This document shows, one piece after another, positions 56,037-64,000 of a stretch of DNA of 64,000 bases (within the stretch, counting starts at the first letter, position 1; every line of letters begins with the position of its first letter). Origin of the DNA: Candidatus Sulfopaludibacter sp. SbA3 (lineage in GTDB: Bacteria > Acidobacteriota > Vicinamibacteria > Vicinamibacterales > UBA2999); the NCBI GenBank assembly GCA_945903265.1, contig CAMDNQ010000014.1, positions 1-64,000 of the forward strand. Reading direction: 5' to 3'. The notes under the pieces were generated by a model that did no database searches, was not told the origin of the DNA, and saw only the letters and a program-made list of their open reading frames with translations. The translations under genes and the position numbers were made by a program.

Positions 56037-57167
56037 ATGGTCCAGCAGATGGAATGGGACTCCCCGGTCGCCGTCTTCCTGTGGTCGCTCCTCGGAGCCT
56101 ACGTCGTCTATCGGTTCGTCTATCTGGTCTGGCGACTTGACGGCATCCGCCGCATCCGGCGCGCGGGGCCCCGCCGCATCCTGGCGACGACGCACCGTGT
56201 CTGGCGCGAGCCGACCGGCCCCGAACTGTCGGACCTCCGGTTCGGCCCTGGCGGCGAGGGCAGCCGCCCGGTGCCGCCGTTCCGTTTTGTGGAAGAACAC
56301 ACCGCAGGTTCCTGGCCGTGTGTGGCGGTTCGCGACGCCGCCGGCCGGCTCTGGCGCGTGAAGTGGGGCGATGAGGCGAAGCCGGAGTCGTTCGCCGCCC
56401 GGTTCGCGTGGGCGCTTGGATACTTCGCCGAAGTCACGCACTACGTTGCGGAGGGGCAGATTGAAGGCATCACCGCGCTGAATCGCGCGAAAGGCTGCGT
56501 GACGGAAGACGGCAGTTTCGAGAACAGCCGCTTCGAGCTCGAGGACCGATCGGTGCGGATGCTGTTCGACGAGCACAGCTGGGCGTGGGACGACAACCCG
56601 TTCCTCGGCACCCCCCAGTTGAACGGTCTGAAGATCGTGAACATGCTGCTGTCCAACTGGGACACCAAGGATCGCCGCGATGTCTCGAGGGGCTCCAACA
56701 CCGCGATCTTCGAGCACCGCGTGTCGCGCTGGCGCTACGAGGCGCGGTATCTGATCACCGATTGGGGGGGCGCGATGGGACGGTGGGGCGCGACGGTCGT
56801 CTCGCGCGGGCGCTGGGACATCGACGGCTTCGAGGCGCAGACCCCGGGGTTTGTGACAGGCGTTGTCGACGGCTTCGTGGGATTCGCGTACCAGGGCCAG
56901 AGGACGCCCGAAATCGTGCGGGGCATCACAGTAGAGGATGCCGCCTGGTTCTACCGATACGCCGGCCGCCTGACGGAACAGGCGATGCGCGACGGCCTTA
57001 CGGCCTGCGGCGCGACCGATGACGAGGCGGGACGCTTTGCGCGGGCATTACGGGATCGGATCCAGCAGATCGGCCACGCGGCGGGGTGCGTGCCGGAGGA
57101 GGCTCGACGTACGATGAAGGCGGATGAACGAGCAGCCGCCGCCGGCGGCACCACGGGCGCGTTATAG
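56037..57167 (+). CDS. Membrane-anchored protein of unknown function, possible kinase-like fold
   Basis: A 376-residue protein with one N-terminal transmembrane helix (VFLWSLLGAYVVYRFVYLVW) and a soluble domain. I know similar Acidobacteriota proteins only as hypothetical. The order WRVKWGD (lysine), E-containing helix (AWALGYFAEVTHYV), LKIVNMLLSNWDTKDRRDV and YLITDWGGAMGRWG resembles the Lys, Glu, catalytic loop and DxG elements of atypical kinases; this is inference. Promoter TTTACA (56011-56016) and TATATG would put transcription near 56046, so ATG 56049 may be the true start. It overlaps the start of the TamB-BamA fusion by 44 bases, tying the two together. Confidence 0.65.
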   Translation: MVQQMEWDSPVAVFLWSLLGAYVVYRFVYLVWRLDGIRRIRRAGPRRILATTHRVWREPTGPELSDLRFGPGGEGSRPVPPFRFVEEHTAGSWPCVAVRDAAGRLWRVKWGDEAKPESFAARFAWALGYFAEVTHYVAEGQIEGITALNRAKGCVTEDGSFENSRFELEDRSVRMLFDEHSWAWDDNPFLGTPQLNGLKIVNMLLSNWDTKDRRDVSRGSNTAIFEHRVSRWRYEARYLITDWGGAMGRWGATVVSRGRWDIDGFEAQTPGFVTGVVDGFVGFAYQGQRTPEIVRGITVEDAAWFYRYAGRLTEQAMRDGLTACGATDDEAGRFARALRDRIQQIGHAAGCVPEEARRTMKADERAAAAGGTTGAL

Positions 57168-60100
57168 ACGCCTTCTCATCGCCCTCGCGGGTCTCGCGGG
57201 CGCCGCGATGCTGTTTGCCCTGCTTCTCCACGCGGCGTTCGCGCGGCGCGCCGTGCTCGGATACATCCTTCCAAGAATCGAACGCGAATATCAGCTTCAA
57301 CTGACGGCTTCGCGGCTGGATTACAACCTCGCGGCCATGCGTGTCGGGCTCGCCGGCGTCGCGCTCGCGTCGCCCCGAACGCCGACCGCGCCGTTTTTCA
57401 CGGCGGATTACGTCCAGGTCGACGTGCCCTGGAGCATTCTGCGCGGCGCCGTGGTATTCGACGACATCAGCGTGACGAACGGGGTGGTCGCCATCAGGCG
57501 GTACGGCGACGGCACTACCAACCTGCCGGCGGGTTCCGCCGAACCTGGTGGTGAGCCCGCGGCGCTGCGAATCGGCAGGCTGGATATCAACCGGCTCACC
57601 ATCGATCTGGTCGACGAGCAGGCGATTACGAGCCTGCTGTTGCCGGCCGTGGCAATACAGCTAACGCCGTCCAGTGGTTTTATCCGCCTGGCGGAAGAAG
57701 GCTTTCTTCGGACGGAAACTCAGGAAACCCGGATTCAGCAGCTCAGTGGCGGCGCGAGCTTCGATGGACGTGCCCTCCACCTGTCGGGCCTCGAGGTGCG
57801 CACCGGTGAGGGCACCGCGCGCGTGGACGGCGCGCTGACCCTGATTGCGCGCGACCAGCGCGCCGACGTGCGCATCATCGGATCGATCGACGCGACGCGC
57901 GCGTCGCGATGGTTCGTGGCGAACGGCACCCTGCCCGAAGGAACAGTCGCGTTCGACGCGGAGGTTGAAGGGCCGTTCACGGACATCACGACAGTGGCCA
58001 GCGTCACGTCAGACCGCCTTGCGATGGGGGAGGTTGCGTTGACCGCGTTGAACGGGCGTGTACGCGTCACGTCTGTCGCGGCCGACATCGAGACTCTTGG
58101 GTTCGACTTCGCGGGCGGGAGCGCATCTGCGATGGGTGTGCTGCCGCTCGATGACGCGGGCAGCGGCCGCCTCACGGCGTCGTGGAAGGGCGTCGACGTG
58201 GCGGAAGCCACGCGAGCGTTCGCGCCTGACGCTGAACTGACGCCGTCCGGTCAGTTCTCCGGCGAGATCAACGTCGAGGGCCGCGGGCTGGCGATCGAGC
58301 GCTGGAGAGGACTGATGCGCCTGGCGCTGGCCGGCGGCACGACGCGGAATGGGCAGATCGCTGCGCCGGGAAACTCGATGGTGCGGCTCAACGAGGGAAC
58401 GTGGCGCCTCGAAGGCCGTCATGCGATCGGCGGCGTCGCGCCCGCGGCGGTCGTCCTGAGCGGGACAACCGGCGAGAGCATCGTGACCGGCGACATCAGT
58501 GTGTCCCCGGCGAACCTCGTCGCGCTCGCGGACATGTTGCGTGCATCCGGCCTTGCCGACATCAGCCGCCTCGTCATCACGGGCGGATTTATCGAGGGGC
58601 AGTTTCACCTCGCTGGGCAGTTGGCCGATCCGGTGCTCAAGGGCGAGATCGTCGTGCGGGATCTGCTTGCCCCGGAAGTCACGATCCCCCTCATCAACGC
58701 CAGTCTCAGCGGTCGGCCCGCGCTGCCGGAACTGACGTTCCGCGCTGATGCGCCGGCTGGCGAGATTGCCGGCGAGGCGGTCGCGAATCTGCGCGCGGCC
58801 GGGCGCCTCGTCGAGTCGATGGTGCTTCTGCACGACCTGACGGCATCACAGCCGTCCACTGCCGGCATGCTCAGCGCGCGCGGCACGTACGACCTCGAGA
58901 CAGGTCGCTATGACGCGGCGATCGAGGGGGCAAGCTGGCGCGTCTCCCCGACAGCGGACCGGCCCGCGGCTGCTGACATTGACCTGACCTTCAAGGGGAC
59001 GGGCACGATGGACGACCCCGCGGGCGTCGGCAATGTGACGCTCCGCGGCGTTGAATGGGACACGAGGCGGCTTGGCGATGTCACGGCTTCGATCGAGCTT
59101 GCCCGGCGCGGCGCGGTCATCGAGGCCGAGGCTCCGGAGTTTGCGGCGACTGCCAGCCTCGAGGTCGCGCTCGACGCGCCGTACGCGGCTACCGTCGACG
59201 CGCGTGCGACGGGACTCGACCTGGCCCGGGTGCTTCAGGGCATCGAGACCCCCGTGCCCATTTCAGGGACGACGAGCCTGGCGATTCGTGCCGAAGGGCC
59301 GCTGGAATCATGGCGCGCGGGTACGGCATCCATCGAAGTGACGTCACTCGATGCCCGTGCCGGCGATCTCGACGTGAGCCTGGCCGAGACCGCGCGTGCG
59401 CGCTATGCGTCGGAGCGCGTGTTTATCGACCGACTGGAAGTCGATGCGGAAGACCTCCGGCTGTCGGCCTCCGGTGACATCGACGCGTTTGCGGGGAACA
59501 GCGGGGCCTCCGGCGTCCTCGTGACGATGACGGGCGACGTGGACCAGGTCGTGCGCGCCGCGGCGGCTGCGGGACTGACCGATCTGCCCGTTACCGGCGG
59601 CAGCGGCCCGGTCGCATTGCTCGCACGCATCACCGGCGTCATCGAAGAGCCGGTCATCGCCGCCGACCTCGAGGCCGGACCGGGGTCGGTGACCCTGCGA
59701 GACCTGCCGCCGGCGACGAATGTTCGTCTGCGCGCGCACGCCGAAGAAGGGTGGGTCGAACTCCGCGAGGCCCAGGTGAGTTACGAAGGGGCCGAAATCA
59801 CGGCCACTGGCAAGGCGCCTCTATCGCTCGTGGGTGCCGCCGGGCCATTCGGCGCAGGCGCCTCCGGAGCAGCGGAGCTCCATGCGCGCGCCACGAACCT
59901 GGGTGCCGGCGTGCTCCGTCCATTCGTTGAGTCTGGCGCTGTGGACGAGATCGAGGGCTCCATCGACGCCTCGCTCGACCTCTCAACGCCAACGCTCGAA
60001 CTCTCTAGCCTGACGGGCGAGCTCCGCATCGATCGCCTCGATGTGCGGGTGGCCGACCTCCCGGTCACGCAGCGCGTTCCGACTCGCATCGTTGCGCGCG

Positions 60101-63100
60101 ACGGGTTTGCCCGCGTCGAGGCGTGGGAGTGGGTGGGGCAGGGGGCGACGCTCGACGTCCGCGGCCAGGTGCGTCTCGAGGATCGTCAGGCCGCCATACT
60201 CGCGAACGGCGTCATCGACCTGCGCATGCTCACGCCGTTCGTGCGTGACGCCGGCATGACCACCGCCGGACGCATGGAACCTCGTCTCTCCATCACCGGC
60301 CCGATCGACAGCCCCCGCATCGACGGGGATGTGCTCGTGACCGACGGTGAGGTGCGGCTCGTGGACCCGCGAGTCATCGTCTCGGGCCTGACGGTTCGAA
60401 CGGTGCTGTCGCGCATGTCCGGCCGCATCACCGAGCTCACTGGCACGATCAACGGCGGCACGCTCACCGGCGAAGGGACGATCGACTACAACGACGACGG
60501 GCAGCTCGACCTGCAGCTGACGAGCGACATCCGCGGCATGGCGCTCGAGTTTCCAGAAGGCCTTCGCAGCGAGATCGACGCTGCGCTCGGACTCTCCTTT
60601 GTCGCGCCCGATCCGATGTCCGGACTGCTGTCCGGGACGGTCACGGTCGTCCGTGGCTCGTATCGCGAACCGCTGGCCGTGGTCACCGGTCTGCTCGCCG
60701 CGTCGCGCGCGCGGCAGCTTGCGGCAGCGGCCGAGCCGTCGCCGCTTCTCGATGCCCTCGCGCTGGACGTGCGTGTGACGACCGACGAAGACATCTTCGT
60801 GGACAACAACTACGGCCGCTTCCAGCTGGGAGGCGACTTCCGTCTGATCGGGACGGGCTCGGCGCCGGGGATGTCGGGACGTGCCGAGCTGCGCGAGGGC
60901 GGCCAGCTGTTCGTCGGGCGCAACGTGTACACGGTGAACTTCGGAACGATCGATTTTGCGAGTGCCGCTGCCATCGAGCCCAACCTGAATGTCGAGGCGG
61001 CCACGCGCGCCGGTGGGGAAGACATCGAGGTCACGATCGCCGGTCCTGCGGAAGCGCCGACTGTGACACTCACGTCGCCGAGCAACCCGGACCTTGGCCA
61101 GGCGGAGCTCGCGTCGTTGCTGCTGACCGGGCGGCGGCTGGAGGATCTGGCGCCGGGCGATGCGGCGTTCGTCGGCACACAAGTGCTGGGGAATTTCTCC
61201 GCCGAAGTGCTTGGCTTCGCCAGCCGCGCCGTGGGTCTCGACACGCTGCGTCTCGGCGGCGTCGACAACCCGGCGCTGCGACGCGACCCGAACGCCGTGG
61301 CGACGGAGCTCGATCCGACGACCCGTGTCACGTTCGGCAAAAGCCTCGGATCCGACGTCGATGTGACGTTCTCGCAGAGTCTGCGCGAGGGCGATGCTCA
61401 AACGTGGATCGTGGACTATCTCCCAGCCCGCGGGCTGGAACTCCGTCTCGTGTCTGATGACGAGGATCTGCGGTCCTATGCCTTCCGCCACGACGTGGCG
61501 TTCGGGGGCGCGGCCCGCGCGGGTCAACCCGCCGCATCCGCGCGCGCCGAGGTCCGCGTGGCTCGAATCGACATCGCGGGAAACGTCGCGCTCGCGGACG
61601 CACGCGTGCGGGACACGCTGGGCCTGGAGCCTGGAGAGCGGTTCGACTTCGCGAGCTGGCAGGAGGATCGCGATCGGCTCGAAGCGCTGTATCGCGACGA
61701 GGGGTATCTGACGGCGCGGATCACGGCGCGAAGGATGGACGAGACGGATGGGGTCGTCCTGATCTACGGGATCGAGGCAGGCCCCATTACCTCGATCGAC
61801 ATCGCCGGCATGCCGGTGCCGTCCGCGTTGCGCGAACGCCTCGAGACGGCATGGGCCGCGTCGGTGTTCGATGACTTCCTGATTGACGAAGCCGCCGGCA
61901 TCATCCGGGCGGAACTCGGCGCGGACGGCTATCTGCAGCCGACGGTCGACGTCAGCGTCCGCGAGATGCCCGGGCGCAAGGTGCTGGCGATTGCCGTCGA
62001 GCCCGGTTCGAGTACGACCCGCACCGTGATTCGAGTCGAGGGGGTGGACGAGGCGCTCGGCGAGGAGATCCAGGCCAACCTCCGCGCGCAGGGCGTCGAC
62101 GACGTGGTGTCCGAGGCGGGTCGGGTCGAGGCGGAGACGACGGCGTTCCTGCGCCGCCGTGGCTATCTCCGCGCGAATGTCACCGTCGGGGCGCCCCGCT
62201 TCCAGGACGACACCGCGACCCTTCCGCTCACCGTGGACGCCGGCGATATCTTCGTCATTTCCGACGTCTCATTTTCTGGTTCTGGCGGTCTCGACATCGA
62301 CATGCGTGGCGTCGCGGGAGTCGACCCAGGCGAACCGTACGCGCCGGCCGCCATCGAAGAAGCCCGCCAGCGCCTTGTGGCGGTCTATCGCCGGGAAGGG
62401 TTTGCCGCAGCGGCGGTCGCGGCGCGTCCTGTCGTCAACGAGACGCGGCCGGAAGTTGCGGTGGCCTTCGACGTGACGGAAGGCCCTCGTCAGGTGGTCA
62501 ATGAGATTGCCATCACAGGCAATCGCCGGGTTGACACCGATGTCATCCGACGGACGCTCGAGATGTCCGAAGGGGATCCGCTCCGGGCAGACGAGGTGCT
62601 GCAGGCGCGCACGCGGGTGTTCAATACCGGTCTCTTCCGCCGTATCGACGTGTCGTCGGAACAGGTCTCGACATCAGACGCCGCCGCCATGCGGCTGCGC
62701 GTGACGGTCGAGGAGTGGCCGGCTGTGCGCCTGCGGTACGGCCTCGTGGTGGCCGAAGAGCGGCCTGAAGACAAGATCGACGGCCGCGAGCTGGTGCCTG
62801 GCGTGTCGGCGGACGTCACGCGCCGCATGCTGTTCGGCGGGCCGATCGGGATCGGCACCGCCGTGTCGCTGCAGCGCCGGGACCAGCGCGCGCGTGTCTT
62901 TGTGAATACCCCGACGCTCTTCAGCCTGCCCGTCGAATCGTCACTGATCGGCGAAAAATCGCGTGAGCAGTTCCAGGCGGTCAGCCTCGTGACACATCGG
63001 GACAGCATGACGTGGGAGCAGCGCGCGCGGATCGCGCGCAACCTGACGCTGTCGTACGCCTACACGTTCGAGCGTAACCACACCTTCGACACCAATCCGA

Positions 63101-63723
63101 ACGAAGGGGACGAGTTCGCGTTCGACATCACCGTCAACATCGCGCGGCTCAACACCGCCCTCGCCTGGGACACCCGAGACGACCCCACGGACACCACGCG
63201 TGGTCTCTTTGCCTCCATGACCTCCGAGTTCGCGCCCGAGGCGGTGGGATCGGACATCAGGTTCATCCGGCAGCTGCAGCAGGGCTACTACTTCCGGCCG
63301 TGGCGCGGGATGGTCTTTGCCTCCGCGGCCAGAGCCGGTGTCGTCGTGCCGCTTGGCGGACAGGACCTGATCGTGTCGGAGCGATTCTTTGCCGGTGGGT
63401 CGCGAACGGTCCGCGGCGTCGCGGAGGAGGGGCTGGGTGGCCGCGATTTCTTCGGCCCTACGGGCGGTCAGCTGATGGTGGTGCTGAACCAGGAAGTGCG
63501 CGTGCCGATTTACGGCTGGGTGGGGGGCGTCGGATTCGTCGACGCCGGCAATGTCTTCACGAAGCCGCGCGACGCGAGCCTGCGCGATCTGGTGGGGTCG
63601 GTTGGCGTGGGGGTGCGGCTGGTGACGCCGTTTGCGCTGCTGCGGGTCGATTTCGCAAAAACGGCCTGGGGCGCGCCGGCGACCTCAGGCCGTTGGACGT
63701 TTGGAATTGGTCAGGCTTTTTAG
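57124..63723 (+). CDS. TamB-BamA fusion: envelope-spanning bridge joined to an Omp85 barrel
   Basis: A 2199-residue single reading frame. Residues 17-40 are a transmembrane anchor (RRLLIALAGLAGAAMLFALL). From there to about 1470 runs the beta-rich TamB/AsmA-like part, ending in a DUF490 domain with NLNVEAATRAGGEDIEVTIA, PSNPDLGQAELASLLLTGRR and TRVTFGKSLGSDVDVTF (about 1287-1415). Five POTRA domains follow, at about 1477, 1555, 1633, 1710 and 1791 (each with a x-I-x-x-x-G start and a Y-x-x-x-G-Y/F helix), then a barrel from about 1868 with the L6 motif VRGV (2096-2099) and a terminal Phe. TamB and TamA/BamA are normally separate inner- and outer-membrane proteins. The predicted product would span the whole envelope and could move lipids or insert proteins. 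Confidence 0.9.
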   Translation: MNEQPPPAAPRARYRRLLIALAGLAGAAMLFALLLHAAFARRAVLGYILPRIEREYQLQLTASRLDYNLAAMRVGLAGVALASPRTPTAPFFTADYVQVDVPWSILRGAVVFDDISVTNGVVAIRRYGDGTTNLPAGSAEPGGEPAALRIGRLDINRLTIDLVDEQAITSLLLPAVAIQLTPSSGFIRLAEEGFLRTETQETRIQQLSGGASFDGRALHLSGLEVRTGEGTARVDGALTLIARDQRADVRIIGSIDATRASRWFVANGTLPEGTVAFDAEVEGPFTDITTVASVTSDRLAMGEVALTALNGRVRVTSVAADIETLGFDFAGGSASAMGVLPLDDAGSGRLTASWKGVDVAEATRAFAPDAELTPSGQFSGEINVEGRGLAIERWRGLMRLALAGGTTRNGQIAAPGNSMVRLNEGTWRLEGRHAIGGVAPAAVVLSGTTGESIVTGDISVSPANLVALADMLRASGLADISRLVITGGFIEGQFHLAGQLADPVLKGEIVVRDLLAPEVTIPLINASLSGRPALPELTFRADAPAGEIAGEAVANLRAAGRLVESMVLLHDLTASQPSTAGMLSARGTYDLETGRYDAAIEGASWRVSPTADRPAAADIDLTFKGTGTMDDPAGVGNVTLRGVEWDTRRLGDVTASIELARRGAVIEAEAPEFAATASLEVALDAPYAATVDARATGLDLARVLQGIETPVPISGTTSLAIRAEGPLESWRAGTASIEVTSLDARAGDLDVSLAETARARYASERVFIDRLEVDAEDLRLSASGDIDAFAGNSGASGVLVTMTGDVDQVVRAAAAAGLTDLPVTGGSGPVALLARITGVIEEPVIAADLEAGPGSVTLRDLPPATNVRLRAHAEEGWVELREAQVSYEGAEITATGKAPLSLVGAAGPFGAGASGAAELHARATNLGAGVLRPFVESGAVDEIEGSIDASLDLSTPTLELSSLTGELRIDRLDVRVADLPVTQRVPTRIVARDGFARVEAWEWVGQGATLDVRGQVRLEDRQAAILANGVIDLRMLTPFVRDAGMTTAGRMEPRLSITGPIDSPRIDGDVLVTDGEVRLVDPRVIVSGLTVRTVLSRMSGRITELTGTINGGTLTGEGTIDYNDDGQLDLQLTSDIRGMALEFPEGLRSEIDAALGLSFVAPDPMSGLLSGTVTVVRGSYREPLAVVTGLLAASRARQLAAAAEPSPLLDALALDVRVTTDEDIFVDNNYGRFQLGGDFRLIGTGSAPGMSGRAELREGGQLFVGRNVYTVNFGTIDFASAAAIEPNLNVEAATRAGGEDIEVTIAGPAEAPTVTLTSPSNPDLGQAELASLLLTGRRLEDLAPGDAAFVGTQVLGNFSAEVLGFASRAVGLDTLRLGGVDNPALRRDPNAVATELDPTTRVTFGKSLGSDVDVTFSQSLREGDAQTWIVDYLPARGLELRLVSDDEDLRSYAFRHDVAFGGAARAGQPAASARAEVRVARIDIAGNVALADARVRDTLGLEPGERFDFASWQEDRDRLEALYRDEGYLTARITARRMDETDGVVLIYGIEAGPITSIDIAGMPVPSALRERLETAWAASVFDDFLIDEAAGIIRAELGADGYLQPTVDVSVREMPGRKVLAIAVEPGSSTTRTVIRVEGVDEALGEEIQANLRAQGVDDVVSEAGRVEAETTAFLRRRGYLRANVTVGAPRFQDDTATLPLTVDAGDIFVISDVSFSGSGGLDIDMRGVAGVDPGEPYAPAAIEEARQRLVAVYRREGFAAAAVAARPVVNETRPEVAVAFDVTEGPRQVVNEIAITGNRRVDTDVIRRTLEMSEGDPLRADEVLQARTRVFNTGLFRRIDVSSEQVSTSDAAAMRLRVTVEEWPAVRLRYGLVVAEERPEDKIDGRELVPGVSADVTRRMLFGGPIGIGTAVSLQRRDQRARVFVNTPTLFSLPVESSLIGEKSREQFQAVSLVTHRDSMTWEQRARIARNLTLSYAYTFERNHTFDTNPNEGDEFAFDITVNIARLNTALAWDTRDDPTDTTRGLFASMTSEFAPEAVGSDIRFIRQLQQGYYFRPWRGMVFASAARAGVVVPLGGQDLIVSERFFAGGSRTVRGVAEEGLGGRDFFGPTGGQLMVVLNQEVRVPIYGWVGGVGFVDAGNVFTKPRDASLRDLVGSVGVGVRLVTPFALLRVDFAKTAWGAPATSGRWTFGIGQAF

Positions 63724-63779: not shown

Positions 63780-64000
63780 CTATCTTCCTCGGACAGTTCG
63801 CATGATCTGGATCACTTCGGGGCGCTCCGGGGCTTCCGGGGCCAGCCGCAGGAAGGCTTCGAAGTGGTTGGCCATCCGGTCGGGGCGTCCGGCCCGGTAC
63901 TCCATCAGCCCGCCATAGTAATGCGCATACGCGAGCGCCGGATTCAGGTCCGACGCGCGGTCGAACGCAGCGGCGGCTCCGCGCCAGTCTTCGCGCTTCG
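63780..64000 (-). CDS. TPR-repeat protein, C-terminal end (5' part beyond window)
   Basis: The last 72 residues of a minus-strand gene that enters from the right edge. The stretch DWRGAAAAFDRASDLNPALA followed by YAHYYGGLMEYRAGRPDRMA and HFEAFLRLAPEAPERPEV is a typical pair of tetratricopeptide repeats. Stop TAG at 63780-63782. Nothing can be said about the rest of the protein or its partner. Confidence 0.8.
   Translation of the reverse strand, partial: KREDWRGAAAAFDRASDLNPALAYAHYYGGLMEYRAGRPDRMANHFEAFLRLAPEAPERPEVIQIMRTVRGR

Follow-up and report, generated by a model that had tools for sequence, protein, structure and literature searches.

TamB and an Omp85 barrel encoded as a single polypeptide in many Acidobacteriota

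Elsewhere, the translocation and assembly module (TAM) consists of two separate proteins, an inner-membrane lipid bridge and an outer-membrane barrel. In E. coli, the last strand of TamB pairs with barrel strand 1 of TamA, phospholipids are carried in the hydrophobic cavity of TamB, and TamAB adopts hybrid as well as non-hybrid states (PMC12800296). Docking of TamB on BamA has been modelled for Borrelia (PMC13382580), and Heinz et al. described acidobacterial BamA-TamB operons and duplicated BamA (PMC4494059); the words “fusion” and “fused” are absent from the text of that study. Ten Omp85 architectures were distinguished by Heinz and Lithgow (PMC4104836). No prior report of a TamB-Omp85 fusion was found in a search confined to the open-access literature.

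Many Acidobacteriota encode both TAM halves as one giant protein. In the window (the whole stretch of DNA analysed here, 64,000 nucleotides of contig C14 of a 45-contig draft assembly that is 98.9% complete), one intact forward-strand frame runs from ATG at 57124 to TAG at 63723 without internal stop and encodes, in order from the N-terminus, the anchor helix for the inner membrane, the TamB rod with its full PF04357 end, a linker of 14 residues and, behind it, five POTRAs and the Omp85 barrel (Table 1). The initial annotation had read here one uninterrupted 6.6-kb frame for a covalent TamB-Omp85 polypeptide with an N-terminal membrane anchor, about 1,400 residues of TamB/AsmA-type beta sequence, a full DUF490 end, five POTRA-like repeats and a barrel that has a VRG motif and ends in Phe; Pfam and AlphaFold bear this out in every part save the length of the TamB-type portion, which is nearer 1,460 residues. 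A 376-aa gene without Pfam or NCBIfam match (56037–57167) shares its last 44 nt with the start of the fusion; despite this overlap it was rejected as an operon partner, as no homologue was seen next to other fusions. About 10 kb downstream of the fusion, at contig ~74.1 kb, a gene for an MlaE-like permease was recognised by eye from its translation (L019, 18070–18849).

Table 1. Positions of the fusion gene, the parts of its product and the convergent gene in the window
Feature	Position (nt)	Strand	Basis
tamB-omp85 fusion gene, 2199 aa	57124–63723	+	Frame translation; single-frame homologues at 39 further loci
N-terminal inner-membrane anchor helix, residues 12–35	57157–57228	+	AlphaFold helix; hydropathy 2.61 at residue 17
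TamB/AsmA-type beta rod, residues 59–1317, ~80 strands, alternating hydropathy	57298–61074	+	AlphaFold models and hydropathy
PF04357 TamB (DUF490) domain, residues 1105–1444	60436–61455	+	Pfam, 101.9 bits (cut-off 22.4)
TamB C-terminal strands, residues 1401–1460, ending RHDVAF, most conserved stretch	61324–61503	+	Model, alignment, codon conservation
Linker, residues 1463–1476, without signal sequence, weakly conserved	61510–61551	+	Junction hydropathy, codon conservation
POTRA 1, residues 1478–1551	61555–61776	+	Pfam, AlphaFold
POTRA 2, residues 1555–1626	61786–62001	+	AlphaFold
POTRA 3, residues 1633–1705, weak POTRA_TamA_1 match	62020–62238	+	Pfam, AlphaFold
POTRA 4, residues 1711–1785	62254–62478	+	AlphaFold and profile matches
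POTRA 5, residues 1790–1864	62491–62715	+	AlphaFold and profile matches
16-strand Omp85 barrel, residues 1868–2199; VRG 2096–2098; terminal Phe 2199	62725–63720	+	Pfam, AlphaFold, structural comparison
3′ part of convergent gene for secreted 200-aa TPR protein	63780–64000	−	Runs on to contig position 64382, beyond the window

The first 1,110 residues, modelled by AlphaFold on a 21-row alignment, form the one transmembrane helix followed by 67 strands (mean pLDDT 87.6), to which the C-terminal model adds 13 strands of the rod. These strands are amphipathic, with a mean odd-even hydropathy difference of 2.41 against 1.51 (sd 0.14) after shuffling within strands; in the models, such strong alternation is as expected of a groove lined by hydrophobic side chains. 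Pfam places a sub-threshold DUF748/YhdP match at the N-terminus, and the DUF490 match, whose presence ahead of the POTRA array had been put up for checking, covers positions 3–365 of the 381 in the profile. The protein falls below the NCBIfam equivalog for autotransporter-assembly TamB (NF047952; 41.7 bits vs. 825); the beta-signal-like strand with final F or Y at which TamB proteins end is present as RHDVAFG but internal, being followed by the linker and the POTRAs. Foldseek gave only weak matches for the rod, the best being ApoB100, and no kinship was concluded from them.

The C-terminal half has the features of the Omp85 superfamily, that is, POTRAs and a barrel of 16 strands that contains a VRG motif and closes with an aromatic residue. 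PF07244 (POTRA) scores 131 bits, with three stretches passing the cut-off on their own, and PF01103 (Omp85) matches residues 1910–2199 with 126 bits. The AlphaFold model of residues 1080–2199 (mean pLDDT 77, pTM 0.47) contains the rest of the TamB domain with its helix-plus-strands end, five POTRAs of beta-alpha-alpha-beta-beta fold, and the 16 barrel strands. Model positions 398–1118 align with BamA (Z 24.1), at an rmsd of 16.2 over 681 residues, so that the fit is domain by domain and not rigid; positions 553–1120 align with TamA (Z 23.7, rmsd 6.6, 516 residues). A few structural alignments begin in the TamB end strands (model position 333/334) and from there run to the barrel, in a model whose pTM is 0.47.

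At the junction, the fused TamB ends at the same place as unfused TamB; in the alignment, ...RSYAFRHDVAFGG of the fused protein stands opposite ...RTYALDVRVRHAF and a stop codon in the unfused one. Of 40 sequences, 22 show a clear RHDxxFG-like end motif; in distant ones the motif is degenerate. The spacing from the TamB end to POTRA 1 is 14 residues in the window protein and about 9–47 in other fusions, and the linker is short and rich in Ala and Pro. Among eight close orthologues, amino acid differences per pair amount to 0.21 in the TamB end strands (0.044 at codon position 2), 0.79 in the linker, 0.43 in POTRA 1 and 0.31 in the barrel, which makes the end strands the most and the linker the least constrained stretch; the putative docking strands are thus strongly constrained, and the linker is a tolerant in-frame spacer. 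No hydrophobic segment is found at the junction in 40 sequences (maximum 1.55; window protein 0.75), in contrast to the N-termini of the fusions, which mostly reach hydropathies of 2.2–3.3. Since unfused Omp85 partners start with signal peptides and the Omp85 half of the fusion has no signal sequence of its own, the barrel half would rely on the TamB anchor for export.

The best explanation, and to our judgement a fairly probable one, is a one-piece TAM that docks in cis and provides a lipid path beside a separate BAM. The chain would be exported by its single N-terminal signal anchor, which stays in the inner membrane; residues ~60–1320 would span the periplasm as a TamB rod whose inner face is hydrophobic, and the TamB C-terminal strands may dock, in cis, to strand 1 of the chain's own Omp85 barrel. 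A flexible linker would then lead into the five POTRAs and these to the outer-membrane barrel, such that a single molecule, presumably intact when mature, probably ties the two membranes together. A strand that runs antiparallel to barrel strand 1 ends on the periplasmic side, and the linker into POTRA 1 is therefore topologically possible; the array of five POTRAs would need to turn back towards the barrel. It counts against the model that such a chain would have to be exported and have its barrel inserted with the N-terminus still held, a process for which we know of no studied precedent. By analogy with known TAMs, the main job is most likely a fixed 1:1 path for phospholipids from the inner to the outer membrane, beside the separate BAM, and some outer-membrane proteins may be carried along it too; in many Vicinamibacterales, a secreted TPR protein (see below) would act together with the fusion.

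A more far-reaching picture, of a polypeptide in both membranes whose permanent TamB-Omp85 hybrid barrel holds the POTRAs in a covalent loop, and which would be a one-component lipid conduit, old in Acidobacteriota and with its own TPR partner, is put forward tentatively, as a possibility that we would sooner doubt than accept. Taken by itself, a permanent cis hybrid barrel serving as a lipid conduit without protein insertion would be a special case of the one-piece TAM; the TamB end strands are the most conserved stretch and cannot diffuse away, and E. coli TamAB does form such a barrel. However, the E. coli complex has hybrid and non-hybrid states (PMC12800296), permanence is thus not needed, and we consider it rather unlikely.

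Cleavage of the chain in the linker after export would yield an ordinary two-protein TAM from one precursor. The short, unconserved, Ala/Pro-rich linker and the equivalent end of unfused TamB would suit such a cut, but the 40 sequences contain neither a conserved cleavage motif in the linker nor a second signal sequence. Moreover, an unfused pair already exists in the same genome: on contig C37 (L021, 2590–9671), tamB (1365 aa) overlaps omp85 (994 aa, six POTRA matches, signal peptide) stop to start and in the gene order of the fusion. A precursor would be without evident advantage there, and cleavage appears unlikely.

The one-piece TAM would not be the general BAM of the organism, to judge from the kinship of its barrel half. 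The initial annotation had called that half BamA-like, which holds for the POTRA number (five as in BamA, not three as in TamA) and fails for descent. The fusion scores below the BamA equivalog cut-off (TIGR03303; 229.7 vs. 297.15 bits, a canonical relative reaching 459.7) and below that for TamA (NF047950; 96.4 vs. 625 bits), and in a tree built from the C-termini of Omp85 proteins all 40 fused sequences, that of the window among them, lie on one side of a branch (support 81/67), with BamA, tamA-like proteins and unfused partners as separate 100/100 clades; in sequence terms, the barrel half is an Omp85 lineage of its own, neither BamA nor TamA. In the TamB tree, unfused partners and TamBs of tamA operons also form clean clades. 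The free tree requires two changes for the fused rows, and several independent fusions were considered on that account; they were rejected, as a tree holding the fused rows together scores equally well (p-AU 0.506). Both trees are compatible with one early joining in Acidobacteriota and later duplication and loss.

On the question whether carriers of the fusion also keep separate tamB, tamA and bamA genes, the same genome and its relatives are informative. On contig C12, a tamA-like gene for a protein of 632 aa with three POTRAs precedes a tamB of 1454 aa, and fusion-bearing relatives have retained a canonical bamA of ~900 aa scoring near 450 bits. The N-terminus of the tamA-like protein (L020, 8962–10860) contains LSIAATGC, which resembles a lipobox and recalls TamL of Bacteroidota. 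Canonical bamA was not found in the 98.9% complete assembly of the window genome (G000); skp and the fabZ-lpxA gene, its neighbours in a relative, are missing as well, which makes a gap likelier than a loss, and the absence of all three is probably one gap. That the fusion might be the main BAM, a BamA joined to TamB for general insertion of outer-membrane proteins, could draw on the five POTRAs, on BamA giving the best structural matches and on the missing bamA, yet it is highly improbable given that gap, the canonical bamA of fusion-bearing relatives, and a barrel that branches apart from BamA and fails its cut-off. As canonical bamA, the tamA-like/tamB pair and the unfused tamB-omp85 pair coexist in the group, the fusion is most likely a dedicated one-piece TAM and not a general BAM. 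The combination of lipid transport with protein insertion, as initially proposed, is not indicated, the relatives having kept their bamA.

The fusion is not confined to the window. A BamA-profile search turned up frames close to 2200 residues long in many of 40 relatives, and in the alignment of 20 order-level loci (25–58% identical to the window protein) with the window, TamB, junction, POTRAs and barrel lie in one frame throughout. The same holds for 19 of 20 loci fetched from distant families, which gives 39 homologues across the phylum that read as single frames, none with a stop; one of the distant-family fusions (L092) sits on a single 5.99-Mb contig. Matches that cross the junction in one frame (profile of residues 1105–1640) occur in at least about 68 of 297 Acidobacteriota genomes, under at least 27 family labels, a lower bound counted by hand with four candidates scored per genome. 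Within that sample, all ten genomes of the same family have the fusion (one broken off at a contig edge), as do at least roughly one in four of the remaining genomes of the order; a narrow pattern scan of the genome collection gave 20 loci, nearly all in records whose titles give Acidobacteria or an Acidobacteria subgroup. A sequencing or assembly error joining two genes, which a 45-contig draft might harbour and which had been suggested for checking between residues 1415 and 1477, is negligibly probable and refuted for the family, the same fusion being present in independently assembled genomes at 25–58% identity, in distant families and on the 5.99-Mb contig. One fusion gene (L055, 5291–11006, on contig C387 of G021) is interrupted by an apparent frameshift, which seems to fall within the POTRAs and not at the junction, and two relatives, G024 (L029, L037) and G020 (L033, L040), each carry two divergent fusion paralogues.

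Right behind the fusion and tail to tail with it lies a gene whose 200-residue product carries TPR repeats and a signal sequence that looks cleavable. It stands beside the fusion, always convergent, at 17 of the 21 order-level loci (window included), the adjacent copies being 34–74% identical to that of the window, and it also adjoins fusions in genomes that had no part in building the profile (G309, G317, G239, G278, G207 and G250). It is missing at fusions of some families (f40, f4, f38). While adjacent copies of the order score 199–286 bits, 15 genomes of the order without the fusion gave only background TPR matches of at most about 56 bits. As the gene adjoins the fusion at most loci of the order and is missing from these related genomes without one, the linkage suggests that the TPR protein works with the fusion machine.

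Covalent linkage fixes points that are debated for the TAM, namely its stoichiometry and the question whether the end of TamB leaves the barrel during lipid transport, which is stated to be unclear (PMC11341756). A natural one-piece TAM would offer a 1:1 complex for structural work and a clean test of cis docking, and for an envelope protein that seems to be held by both membranes, the way in which it is exported and its barrel inserted becomes a question in its own right. With both trees fitting one early joining and later duplication, models of BamA and TamA evolution gain a further Omp85 lineage, separate from the others.

Among known systems, the TAM of Proteobacteria (TamA and TamB; PMC12800296) shares with the fusion the inner-membrane-anchored beta rod with hydrophobic groove and the PF04357 end; the docking of the last TamB strands on an Omp85 barrel and the POTRA contacts are presumably common to both. 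It differs in being two proteins, with three POTRAs in TamA, whereas the fusion is one chain with five and its Omp85 half lies outside the tamA-like clade. Omp85 proteins preceded by patatin, WD40-like or metallophosphatase domains likewise carry an extra N-terminal domain before the barrel; TamB or DUF490, however, is unmentioned among the ten architectures (PMC4104836). TamL-TamB of Bacteroidota (PMC12045153) resembles the fusion in that the partner of TamB is an Omp85 protein other than TamA, although TamL is a protein of its own, a lipoprotein that has three POTRAs (PMC4104836). In the BamA-TamB pairs of Borrelia (PMC13382580) and Acidobacteriota (PMC4494059), TamB goes together with an Omp85 protein of at least five POTRAs, and its end strands are modelled as completing the BamA barrel; there, the two proteins are separate, and in Borrelia the partner is the sole BamA, whereas relatives of the fusion keep a canonical one. 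The unfused tamB-omp85 pair of the same genome has the gene order and the domain types of the fusion, but its Omp85 begins with a signal peptide and has six POTRA matches, and both halves of the pair belong to clades apart from the fused ones.
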